From a virus, in the IMG/VR virus record IMGVR_UViG_3300033148_003908, positions 1 to 40,049 of that record: DNA of 40,049 bases. One strand, 5' to 3'. Shown here one piece after another: positions 3,382-17,771 of this stretch (within the stretch, counting starts at the first letter, position 1; the number at the start of each line of letters is the position of its first letter). The position numbers and the translations under genes are program-made. Below the pieces are notes generated by a model that saw only the letters and a program-made list of their open reading frames with translations, had not been told where the DNA came from and ran no database searches.

Positions 3382-3524
3382 ATTGAACTCCTAGTTTTTA
3401 ATTCTCATTCGATATTGTAGTATTATCTACCTTAATGCAAGTTGATGTAAACTTACATTAAGTTATATTAATGTATACTTTCAAATATCGAAGTTAAAAA
3501 TGATTTATTAAGGAGGTTGAGAAA
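3382..3524. promoter_or_regulatory. Divergent early promoter and operator region
   Basis: This stretch separates the leftward cassette from the rightward early genes. Rightward, TTACAT (3453-3458) and TATACT (3474-3479) form a promoter 15 bp apart. Leftward, TTTACA (3451-3446) and GATAAT (3427-3422) are 18 bp apart. Two repeats, TTACATTA (3453-3460) and TTATATTA (3463-3470), are spaced 10 bp. An inverted copy lies at 3431-3442 (CTTAATGCAAGT, against ACTTACATTAAG at 3451-3462), and TACATTAA/TTAATGTA forms another inverted pair. An 18-base stretch (3448-3465) recurs exactly at 9493-9510, upstream of a ribbon-helix-helix gene. Confidence 0.65.
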
Positions 3525-9492: not shown

Positions 9493-9530
9493 TAAACTTA
9501 CATTAAGTTACATTAGTATATAATTTTGAA
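9493..9530 (+). promoter_or_regulatory. Promoter with operator repeats upstream of the RHH gene
   Basis: Two TTACATTA repeats (9498-9505 and 9508-9515) lie 10 bp apart, and a TATAAT box (9519-9524) follows three bases later. The 18 bases at 9493-9510 are identical to 3448-3465 in the early control region, where a second repeat and a -10 box are placed at exactly the same distances. This is best read as a repressor operator overlapping a promoter, with autoregulation by the ribbon-helix-helix protein encoded at 9554. Confidence 0.65.
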
Positions 9531-9553: not shown

Positions 9554-9694
9554 ATGGCTAAAAAAGAAACAACAACAATTACGGTTACGGACGTTGATAA
9601 AGCGGATACAGATTATATTAAGAGTACTGGTCTTGCTAAAACTGTATTTATTCGTATGGCTATAAAAGAAAAAAGAGCTAGAGATTCAAAATGA
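9554..9694 (+). CDS. Ribbon-helix-helix transcription regulator
   Basis: 46 aa: MAKKETTTITVTDVDKADTD, then YIKSTGLAKTVFIRMAIKEK and RARDSK. A polar strand (TTTITV), a first helix (about 14-24), a G-turn and a second basic helix (about 28-42) make the Arc/CopG-type ribbon-helix-helix layout, which binds DNA as a dimer through the strand. The gene follows a promoter carrying 10-bp-spaced direct repeats, the kind of site such dimers bind cooperatively. The same repeats occur in the divergent early promoter region, so it probably controls both. AAGGA lies upstream of the ATG. Confidence 0.65.
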   Translation: MAKKETTTITVTDVDKADTDYIKSTGLAKTVFIRMAIKEKRARDSK

Positions 9695-9804
9695 TAGATG
9701 ATTTTTTAGTGCAATACTATTCTTGTTTAGGTGGTGTTGCATTGGTTGTGTTTGTGCTGTATTTACTTTTTCGCAAAGGTAGAGTTTGGGGTGAAAATCC
9801 TTAA
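9691..9804 (+). CDS. Tiny membrane protein coupled to the RHH gene
   Basis: 37 aa, with ATG overlapping the regulator stop as ATGA. It begins MIDDFLVQYYSCLGGVALVV and continues FVLYLLFRKGRVWGENP. One hydrophobic helix (about residues 10-27) is followed by a basic flank, so the C-terminus is probably cytoplasmic. Function unknown. Confidence 0.5.
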   Translation: MIDDFLVQYYSCLGGVALVVFVLYLLFRKGRVWGENP

Positions 9805-9813
9805 TATTATTAT

Positions 9814-9907
9814 TTTACTTAACCGAGCCTACCATAACTCGCCCGACTTGCATTATGTAAGTTCGGTTAAGTAAATCTTGAAATAGATTAGATGAGTTAT
9901 GGTAGGC
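9814..9907. ncRNA. Interleaved perfect inverted repeats (pseudoknot-like element)
   Basis: Arm A, TTTACTTAACCGA (9814-9826), pairs perfectly with 9863-9875. Arm B, GCCTACCATAACTC (9827-9840), pairs perfectly with 9894-9907. The order A-B-A'-B' means the two helices can form together only as a pseudoknot, or else exclude each other. Between them, ACTTGCATTATGTAAGT (9846-9862) forms a small hairpin and resembles the RHH operator half-site. No reading frame covers it. It sits between the RHH unit and the clamp operon. A structured RNA, a replication origin or a cruciform operator are all possible; the strand is undetermined. Confidence 0.55.
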
Positions 9908-9966
9908 ACATCTTCTTATATTTCCTTTTGAATATTTTTACTTAAATTTTAAGGATACCATATAAA

Positions 9967-10347
9967 ATGAGTGAACAACGAATAGATGGAAAATGTAGTA
10001 AATGTGCTGCTGAATTTACGAAAATAGTTAATGCTGATAAATCTTTTAGAGAAGATAGTACTCGCTATGTATTTAGCGATAGTAATCATGAATATAATAA
10101 ATCTGGTATGGTTTATGATATTTTTAGATGTGATAAATGTACTAGCGTTATTGATGAATCTTGGATTGAAATTCAAACTAAATTATCTAAATTACAAGAT
10201 GATAGATTGAAACTTGTTAAACAATTAACGGATAATTCTATATCGAATTCTTATGAAGAAGTTACTGGACTTAAATCTAGCATAGACGAACTAGATGTAG
10301 AGATAGAAACAGAAATAGAAGAATCAAACAAAAGGAAAATCGTATGA
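9967..10347 (+). CDS. Zinc-ribbon protein with C-terminal coiled coil
   Basis: 126 aa. CSKCAAEF (about residue 10) and CDKCTSVIDESW (about 56) provide two CxxC pairs of a zinc ribbon. The second half is a heptad-like helix (LSKLQDDRLKLVKQLTDN onward) ending in a charged tail. The ribosome binding site is AAGGAT. It overlaps the sliding-clamp gene by 4 nt, suggesting a joint role in replication, though no family was recognised. Confidence 0.65.
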   Translation: MSEQRIDGKCSKCAAEFTKIVNADKSFREDSTRYVFSDSNHEYNKSGMVYDIFRCDKCTSVIDESWIEIQTKLSKLQDDRLKLVKQLTDNSISNSYEEVTGLKSSIDELDVEIETEIEESNKRKIV

Positions 10348-11408
10348 AAATCGTAATACCAAAAAGAGAATTAGAAAACACATTAGTTAAGTCAATACCA
10401 TTCTTAGAGGCTAAAGATATGTCTCAAATCACATCAAATGTGTTGATAACTTTAAGTGATGATACAATGTCAATTAATGCTACTGATTATCAAATGGGTT
10501 TAAAGTCTACTGTGAGCGTTATGGGTATTGTAAATGATGGAACTGCTATCGTAAATGGTAAAAAGCTGCTAGATATAATCAAAGTACTAAAAGATGATAA
10601 TGTAACTATTGAAACTAAAGGGAATGATTTACATATCTCTCAATCTCGAAGTAAGTTTAAATTATCGTTATTTGGTGATGGTGAGTTTCCTAGTTTTCCA
10701 AAAATGGATAATAGCATAGAACTTTCTATTGATTCTGCACGAATGATAAATGCACTTAGAGAGATTACACCATCTATTGATTTGAATAATCCTAAACATG
10801 AGTTTAATGGTGCGTTGATTGATATCAAGAGTGATGGGATTAATTTTGTATCTTCTGATATGAGAAGATTATCTTTAGTAAATATTCCAGGTGAAAACGA
10901 TAATGAACTTGCAATTATTATACCTAGAAAAGCGATATTAGAAATTCAAAAGCTATTTATTGAAGATGTGAAGATTTATTGTAATGATATTTATCTGATT
11001 ATTGAAGCTAACAATTTTATATTTTTTGCTAAATTAGTGAATGGTAAATTTCCAGATTATTCAAGAATCATTCCTAGTGAAATTAATCATTCTATTAATA
11101 TCCCTAAACTTTCAATGATAGAATCCATTAAGCAAGTGCAGATTGTATCTGATGAAATCACAATTAATATCAGCGATGATACTATGACTTTTGGTGCTGT
11201 TAATGATTTTAATGATAAATCTTCAACTGATATGGAAATTGAATATAGTGGTGGTGATATTGTATTTGCTGTAAACTCTAAAATTTTATTAGATTTCTTG
11301 AATGTGATTTATAATAATGAATTTACGATACAAATCAACGATGCTAATTTACCTTTTATCTTAGAATCTGGTGATTTAAAAACTATTGTTATGCCAATAC
11401 AATTATAG
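10344..11408 (+). CDS. dnaN: DNA polymerase III beta subunit (sliding clamp)
   Basis: 354 aa, close to the usual 355-375 aa. The three clamp domains are recognisable: residues 1-115 (MKIVIPKRELENTLVKSIPF, then SQITSNVLI), a middle domain with ALREITPSIDLNNPKHEFNG and FVSSDMRRLSLV, and a third domain after NGKFPDYSRIIP. It ends in IVMPIQL, like the conserved M-P-x-x-L terminus. The wording resembles Campylobacterota DnaN. No polymerase is encoded here, so the clamp probably redirects host polymerase to phage DNA. It overlaps the zinc-ribbon gene by 4 nt. Confidence 0.92.
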   Translation: MKIVIPKRELENTLVKSIPFLEAKDMSQITSNVLITLSDDTMSINATDYQMGLKSTVSVMGIVNDGTAIVNGKKLLDIIKVLKDDNVTIETKGNDLHISQSRSKFKLSLFGDGEFPSFPKMDNSIELSIDSARMINALREITPSIDLNNPKHEFNGALIDIKSDGINFVSSDMRRLSLVNIPGENDNELAIIIPRKAILEIQKLFIEDVKIYCNDIYLIIEANNFIFFAKLVNGKFPDYSRIIPSEINHSINIPKLSMIESIKQVQIVSDEITINISDDTMTFGAVNDFNDKSSTDMEIEYSGGDIVFAVNSKILLDFLNVIYNNEFTIQINDANLPFILESGDLKTIVMPIQL

Positions 11409-16999: not shown

Positions 17000-17028
17000 T
17001 GATTAAAAGCATTAAAATATGCTATAAT
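17000..17028 (+). promoter_or_regulatory. Extended -10 promoter before the structured leader
   Basis: TGCTATAAT (17020-17028) is a perfect extended -10 element. The -35 position holds only a weak TGATTA (17000-17005), as is usual for Campylobacterota sigma70 promoters. Transcription would start near 17035 and enter the hairpin-rich leader. Confidence 0.6.
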
Positions 17029-17048
17029 TATATCGAACTTTTAATTCA

Positions 17049-17139
17049 GCACTACTGACTGTGAGGGTGTCACTTGATGCCCTTTCCGATTTTAGTTATG
17101 AGTTAAGGGTTTATTGGAGCAGTTAGTAGTGCATCTACT
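17049..17139 (+). ncRNA. Structured leader upstream of HNH and Rep genes
   Basis: GCACTACTGACTG (17049-17061) pairs with CAGTTAGTAGTGC (17120-17132) over 13 positions with one G-U. Inside, GGGTGTC-ACTT-GATGCCC (17065-17082) makes a compact hairpin, and CCCTT/AAGGG (17081-17085 and 17105-17109) can form an alternative. AGTAG-TGCAT-CTACT (17125-17139) competes with the outer stem. It is preceded by a perfect extended -10. It may be a regulatory RNA, or the double-strand origin for the Rep protein, since the hairpin contains CTTGAT as in some rolling-circle nick sites. It matches no RNA class I know. Confidence 0.55.
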
Positions 17140-17174
17140 CCCCCTTAAATTTATTAATATACTGAAAGCTACAT

Positions 17175-17771
17175 ATGAAGATATGTACACAATGCAAAAT
17201 AAATAGATGCAAATCAGAATTTCGCCCCAGAGTTGAATCCAGAGATGGGCTACATTCAAATTGTAAACAATGTGGAAGATTAAATGCCACTAAATACAGT
17301 CGCACCATCAAAGGGGTGATAGGAACTATATATAGGACTCAAAAAAGCAGTAGTAAGCATAGACTAATGCCACTCCCGTCCTATTCAAAACAATGGCTTA
17401 CAGAGTGGCTACTTAATCAAAAATTATTTCATAAACTATATAATGGATGGGTAGAAAGTGAATATGATAAGTACATGAAACCATCAGTTGATAGAAAAGA
17501 TGATGAGTTAAGCTATACCTCTGACAATATCCAACTTATGACTTGGCAAGAAAATAAAGACAAATATGATTCCGATAGGATTAGTGGTGTTGATAAAAAA
17601 CAAAATAAACAAGTTATCCAATACTCGATAGATGGTAATCTGTTAAAATCTTATCATTCTTTGTCTAATGCCAGCATTGATACTAAAATTTCTGAATCTT
17701 GCATATCTAATTGCTGTAATGGTAAGATAAAAACTGCTCGTGGCTTTATATGGAAGTATGCTAAGGTATAG
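17175..17771 (+). CDS. HNH homing endonuclease with NUMOD1-type C-terminus
   Basis: 198 aa. The N-terminus has two zinc pairs (CTQCKINRC and CKQCGR). The middle carries PSVDRKDDELSYTSDNIQLM followed by TWQENKDKY, the phage HNH variant seen in free-standing homing endonucleases. The C-terminus (QVIQYSIDGNLLKSYHSL, SNASIDTKISESCISNCCNG, RGFIWKY) is a NUMOD1/IENR1 DNA-binding module. It sits between the structured leader and rep, and its end overlaps the rep start. It therefore probably inserted between a leader or origin and its rep gene. Weak Shine-Dalgarno (GAAAG). Confidence 0.82.
   Translation: MKICTQCKINRCKSEFRPRVESRDGLHSNCKQCGRLNATKYSRTIKGVIGTIYRTQKSSSKHRLMPLPSYSKQWLTEWLLNQKLFHKLYNGWVESEYDKYMKPSVDRKDDELSYTSDNIQLMTWQENKDKYDSDRISGVDKKQNKQVIQYSIDGNLLKSYHSLSNASIDTKISESCISNCCNGKIKTARGFIWKYAKV

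Follow-up and report, generated by a model that had tools for sequence, protein, structure and literature searches.

An apparently new family of interleaved, probably bistable RNA elements in viruses of Sulfurimonas-like bacteria

Introduction

Several described RNAs share part of the behavior or layout of the element presented here. The putRNA of phage HK022 begins at about +3, folds into two stem-loops and occurs twice per genome as putL and putR, and it is, as is proposed for the present element, a cis-acting structured RNA (about 70 nt) near the start of an early phage transcript (PMC9378689). The two differ in that put sequences align between phages and the RNA makes contact with RNA polymerase, whereas the present element is variable in sequence and conserves two exclusive folds. 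To our knowledge, no conserved alternative interleaved fold exists in HK022 put. In Helicobacter pylori, a member of the same bacterial phylum as the presumed host, folding of the aapA3 mRNA leader changes during synthesis, and metastable hairpins of the aapA toxin mRNAs form co-transcriptionally in the leader and are later displaced by stabler pairing, much as is proposed below (PMC6733600). However, the aapA hairpins hide the Shine-Dalgarno (SD) sequence of the toxin mRNA, while the two folds of the present element leave the SD about equally accessible and the downstream genes vary. Metastable folding with translation as its output is likewise known from the levivirus (MS2) leader and the hok mRNA, which resemble the present element in their kinetic folding and in an early hairpin that delays the final fold, but differ from it in being of unrelated sequence and belonging to unrelated genes. 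Finally, the strand order P1-P2-P3-P1'-P4-P2' of HDV-like ribozymes corresponds to the order A-B-C-A'-linker-B' found here. The HDV ribozyme has a P1 of about 7 bp and a fixed core; the A helix of the present element is 9-16 bp long, no core residues are conserved in its 11 members and Rfam gives no match, and an HDV-like ribozyme was thus rejected.

The window analyzed, 40,049 nucleotides, is a 40-kb virus record (IMG/VR record IMGVR_UViG_3300033148_003908) that encodes RecE/RecT-like proteins, a single-stranded DNA-binding protein (SSB), a DnaN clamp, a helicase, methyltransferases, a terminase and a portal protein. The nearest counterparts of its SSB are in viral contigs and Sulfurimonas-type genomes, from which we infer a host among the Campylobacterota.

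Results

The gap at 9814-9907 of the window (element 1), which would encode an RNA of about 95 bases, holds a 13-bp helix A:A' and a 14-bp helix B:B', interleaved, with A and B abutting and 0 mismatches, just as the first-pass annotation had described them, an arrangement far above chance expectation. The + strand folds stably (z = -4.8 for 9790-9930 and z = -6.5 for 9809-9930, with 0 shuffles equally stable), and a descriptor of the flush A|B-C-A'-B' layout scores element 1 at 83 vs a maximum of 65 over 60 Markov shuffles of the window. The gap is situated downstream of an RHH-like gene, an earlier assignment for which neither Pfam nor PHROG gives a match, and of a 37-aa membrane peptide, and upstream of a gene for a 126-aa protein. 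The peptide, predicted at 9692-9805 (+), overlaps the stop of the RHH gene and carries a C-terminal RxWGENP; similar peptides are found in L016, L017, L019, L020, L032 and L041. On the + strand the sole promoter-like site listed upstream of element 1 lies at 9497-9524, and the transcript may start at this RHH promoter instead of at the candidate -10 of Table 1. Two promoter/operator-like blocks with 10-bp repeats (ACTTACATTAAGTTAYATTA) resemble each other, one at the early control region (3433-3478, +) and the other 5' of the RHH gene (9496-9525, +). An operator half-site had also been read into the inner segment 9846-9862, a proposal that did not hold up, as the window contains 16 copies of ACTTRCATTA (at most 1 mismatch) where 14 are expected by chance, and the inner hairpin sequence is not retained in relatives. 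A second element (element 2), located by the structural descriptor, occupies 17035-17141 of the same window, and its arm A is predicted to start at +1.

Table 1. Coordinates of the two window elements, their neighboring genes and associated conserved sequences (window positions unless a locus is named)
Feature	Coordinates	Strand	Basis or remark
Element 1, candidate weak -10 (TAATAT), may not be real	9802..9807	+	sequence
Element 1, arm A, 5' strand of A:A'	9814..9826	+	perfect complement of 9863-9875
Element 1, arm B, 5' strand of B:B', abuts A	9827..9840	+	perfect complement of 9894-9907
Element 1, hairpin C (ACUUGCAU/AUGUAAGU), stacked within B:B' in the final fold	9846..9862	+	folding
Element 1, arm A', 3' strand	9863..9875	+	complementarity and covariation
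Element 1, hairpin D, 5' strand (AGAUG), part of the A-form	9890..9894	+	folding; moderate support
Element 1, arm B', 3' strand	9894..9907	+	complementarity and covariation
Element 1, hairpin D, 3' strand (CAUCU)	9909..9913	+	folding; moderate support
First gene 3' of element 1, 126 aa, function unknown	9967..10347	+	start codon 59 nt after B'
DnaN sliding-clamp gene	10344-11408		after the 126-aa gene
Element 2, -10 box TATAAT, preceded by TGC	17023..17028	+	6 nt upstream of arm A
Element 2, arm A (GAACTTTTAATTCA)	17035..17048	+	descriptor and folding
Element 2, arm B (GCACTACTGACTG), abuts A	17049..17061	+	descriptor
Element 2, hairpin C	17063..17086	+	folding
Element 2, arm A'	17099..17112	+	descriptor
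Element 2, hairpin D, 5' strand (GGAG)	17116..17119	+	sequence; weak support
Element 2, arm B'	17120..17132	+	descriptor
Element 2, hairpin D, 3' strand (CTCC)	17138..17141	+	sequence; weak support
First gene 3' of element 2, HNH/NUMOD-type endonuclease	17175..17771	+	start codon 42 nt after B'
Shared 23-mer TTCTTAAATTTAGTTTTGTTAAT	L016:10657-10679; L230:1492-1514; G019 (L229:5507-5529); G024 (L231:303-325)	- in G019 and G024	immediately 5' of arm A
Second conserved, probably structured non-coding RNA, ~340 nt	L016:10830-11170; L230; G019 (L164)	- in G019 (L164)	

Nine further members come from related phage contigs, so that the family comprises 11, all with the A|B-C-A'-B' layout and an A-B linker of 0 nt. 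The SSB protein served as a productive bait, and among 45 viral loci linked to it a search for perfect repeats that interleave yielded L016, whose arm B shares CCTACCA/TGGTAGG with element 1 and whose A pair is unrelated, and a B-only pattern in 50 whole viral records yielded G008, G019 and G029 (L062, L059 and L061). A covariance model of the B helix and its sequence (R1) returned from 50 viral records the founder members only, together with weak chance matches, and for this reason the structural descriptor was written, which recovered element 2, G023, G024 and G021. Two further viral scans added L230 and L232, the latter with the arm B of element 2 and a different arm A, and picked up G023 and G024 again without using their A arms. 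Two candidates were left out: G033 (L219:1036), which is GC-rich and overlaps an ORF, and L025:1056-1126, whose arms are interleaved yet not abutting. Other routes were unproductive: blastn of the element 1 region against phages and plasmids gave no useful match, the clamp and the 126-aa protein as baits found no viral relatives in IMG/VR, and the 126-aa protein has no relatives among named phages. Model R1 had few candidates to score in 50 Sulfurimonas-type genomes and gave no match there, and CTACCA-type and upstream 23-mer patterns found no member in 228 Sulfurimonadaceae genomes, the layout of a single pattern match (G110) not fitting by eye. Within the limits of the patterns searched, the element thus looks viral.

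Covariation of the arms in relatives, which the first-pass annotation had proposed to look for, is pronounced. The count covers 9 A pairs and 10 B pairs in an ungapped block alignment with constant spacers between blocks, one bulged base being omitted from G024. Over these 19 pairs and 11 sequences, 99.5% of cells are paired and compensatory, double-sided changes occur in 18 of the 19 pairs, pairing being inflated in the rows of L016, element 2, G021, G023 and G024, which were first seen through searches that required complementarity and accepted G.U, not A.C. None of 500 shuffles reaches the observed values, and the pairing collapses once the partner is shifted by a single base. For members matched by the B pattern (G008, G019, G029, G023 and L232) or by the upstream 23-mer (L230 and G024), A pairing is an independent test. 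The A:A' helix of element 1 keeps its pairing in relatives despite unrelated letters, and in the collinear phages G019 and G029 the A arms are wholly replaced and still pair. Read on the strand of the neighboring genes, the helices contain 23 G.U wobbles and 0 A.C, a count inflated in the same rows and a bias partly built into the descriptor; members found by pattern show the same bias. The wobbles, one-sided on the gene-sense strand, therefore point to RNA as the functional molecule and indicate that the element acts as RNA, not DNA. Long perfect inverted repeats in a gap, with an inner near-palindrome, could also be expected of a DNA-level element such as a double cruciform, recombination site, origin or repressor operator. 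However, the direction of the wobbles, the wholesale swapping of arm sequences between collinear phages and the background frequency of the inner motif make a DNA-level role highly improbable. The earlier suggestion of a control or origin element is thus sustained for control, in the sense of a leader RNA, and not for an origin, as nothing indicates replication; GC skew in the window tracks gene direction.

In all 11 members the minimum-energy fold consists of B:B' and hairpin C (B-form, -31 to -44 kcal/mol), and when A:A' is enforced a second complete fold results (A-form, -24 to -40 kcal/mol), in which the A hairpin is lengthened by the 5' part of B, and B' is bracketed by a small hairpin, D. 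According to these nearest-neighbor estimates, from tools that treat nested structures only, full-length RNA favors the B-form over the A-form by 0.8 to 11 kcal/mol. A nascent RNA that ends just past A' reaches -19 to -32 kcal/mol at a point where the B helix cannot yet form; A:A' is thus computed to form first during transcription and B:B' to be the more stable fold. The direct-path barrier from A- to B-form amounts to 15-27 kcal/mol, an upper bound that ignores pseudoknotted intermediates. The hairpin C region has a mean z of -2.9 over the 11 members; for hairpin D the corresponding mean of -1.0 lends moderate support only. The A helix measures 9-16 bp and the A'-B' linker is as short as 4-10 nt in several members. 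From this geometry, together with the 0-nt A-B linker, it follows that both helices would not be complete at once, and the modeled RNA is bistable, A:A' and B:B' being mutually exclusive as full helices. Interleaved arms might instead build a stable H-type pseudoknot, serving as a nuclease block or a small RNA, and A:A' with the inner part of B:B' is geometrically allowed. However, such a pseudoknot would not need full-length, flush complementarity of both helices, and an A-B linker of 0 nt, with A'-B' linkers as short as 4-10 nt, appears to give too little room for two complete ones, which leaves this reading quite unlikely. Pseudoknot, exclusive hairpins and double cruciform were the options originally listed; the list was right, and it is the exclusive hairpins, as RNA, that are favored, while DNA cruciforms are disfavored.

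In 7 of the 11 members the element lies in a putative 5' leader, with the next start codon 38-61 nt past B'. The genes that follow are diverse: the 126-aa protein and clamp, the HNH/NUMOD endonuclease, a KilAC-domain antirepressor, a GIY-YIG protein, an AntA antirepressor, a 128-aa ORF and a possible replication gene, the last being our own reading with no Pfam match. A -10 box (at least 5 of 6 positions of TATAAT) is present 6-8 nt before A in 5 of the 11 (background 2.8%, P ~7e-6), and would place A at +1 in those five. No good -10 stands immediately before A in L016, L230, G019 or G024; these four carry the identical 23-mer of Table 1, which is not a clear -10 promoter. In L016, L230 and G019 the element is separated from the ORF by another conserved non-coding stretch of ~340 nt, for which Rfam gives no match, and the stretch of G024 analyzed ends 287 nt after the start of B. 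The unpaired fraction of the SD region is alike in A- and B-form in the seven leaders (largest difference 0.17, in G021), and a translational switch that sequesters the SD was rejected because access is about equal in both folds. An attenuator was likewise rejected, as neither window element has an intrinsic terminator (GC stem and U-run) after B', their tails being of mixed pyrimidine. These observations bear on a switch triggered by a factor or RNA, in which a ligand (riboswitch), protein or sRNA would stabilize the A- or B-form: two exclusive conserved folds and a high computed barrier between them suit such a device, but there are no conserved unpaired residues for a binding pocket and neither a terminator nor SD sequestration as output, and we regard it as unlikely.

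Neither the window element nor any of the relatives scanned matched a covariance model of Rfam 15, in agreement with the earlier statement that no element of such layout was known, and no description was found in the literature, most subscription journals lying outside the coverage. The element thus apparently constitutes a new RNA element family in viruses of Sulfurimonas-like bacteria, although bistable phage leader RNA as a kind is already known. Other RNA-like features were seen in the course of these searches. The Nitratiruptor phages NrS-2 and NrS-4 (L243:12540-12720 and L244:10530-10710) have a conserved, very stable RNA-like region in a gap near early genes, GC-richer, with partly interleaved arms, a strong internal terminator and no clear Rfam match. 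In L016, positions 10245-10294 (+) contain all parts of the hammerhead ribozyme core (CACGC-CUGAUGA-GGAUU/AAUCC-GAAA-CCUU/AAGG-UA-GCGUG) and fold as its three-way junction; this sequence adjoins a tRNA Pro-Gln-Trp cluster and is not listed in the Rfam scans. ARAGORN also calls a tRNA with an incomplete anticodon (cg) at L016:7116-7189 (+).

Discussion

Taken together, the present data allow a model in which the element serves phage operons as a bistable 5'-leader RNA that acts in cis, its output probably being timed protection of the 5' end or a related effect on elongation, a reading that we consider somewhat better supported than not. Sequence shows the arrangement of the arms, covariation in both helices, the strand that acts as RNA and the position in putative leaders, and the output is what we infer from these and from the computed order of stabilities. 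The model proposes that polymerase would first make A, B, C and A', upon which A could pair with A' as a long hairpin at or near the 5' end, keeping B in its loop and allowing hairpin D to form around B'. Once B' is synthesized, B:B' with hairpin C would be the more stable arrangement and would leave A as a free 5' tail and A' unpaired. As A and B are flush, the RNA would have to switch between the folds, possibly over time or on a trigger. The 5' end would thereby be masked in the A-form and exposed as a 9-16-nt tail in the B-form; bacteria of the presumed host type rely on RNase J. Alternatively, the output may be a co-transcriptional effect on elongation.

Because unlike genes, and even a non-coding RNA, follow the element and SD access differs little between the folds, an output at the level of the transcript is favored, and timed 5'-end protection or put-like help to polymerase is likelier than gene-specific control of translation. 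It is possible that the two stem-loops of the A-form bind RNA polymerase and make it resistant to pauses and terminators, as HK022 putRNA does. Such an antiterminator, the main rival to 5'-end protection, would fit the predicted position at or near +1 of operons, the placement before different genes and non-coding RNA, and the two copies in one genome, which recall HK022 putL and putR (PMC9378689). However, putRNA can be aligned by sequence, whereas the present element barely conserves sequence and keeps a full alternative fold, and a put-like antiterminator is accordingly rather doubtful, though less so than a triggered switch. Timed 5'-end protection can be taken further, to a previously undescribed class of folding-timer leaders, in which a 5'-terminal hairpin would protect or escort the early-operon transcript until a later interleaved helix unmasks the 5' end; this extension is put forward only tentatively. 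It is with similar reserve that we suggest that, in a folding timer, both folds would be under selection while the letters are free to change.

If the model is correct, the element would provide a covariation-supported RNA family for phages of Sulfurimonas-like bacteria, whose RNA biology is barely studied, and a natural example in which selection maintains two exclusive folds, both of full length. Its eleven diverged members would offer a ready test set for co-transcriptional folding, and the presence of two copies in one phage suggests a general device for operon expression.
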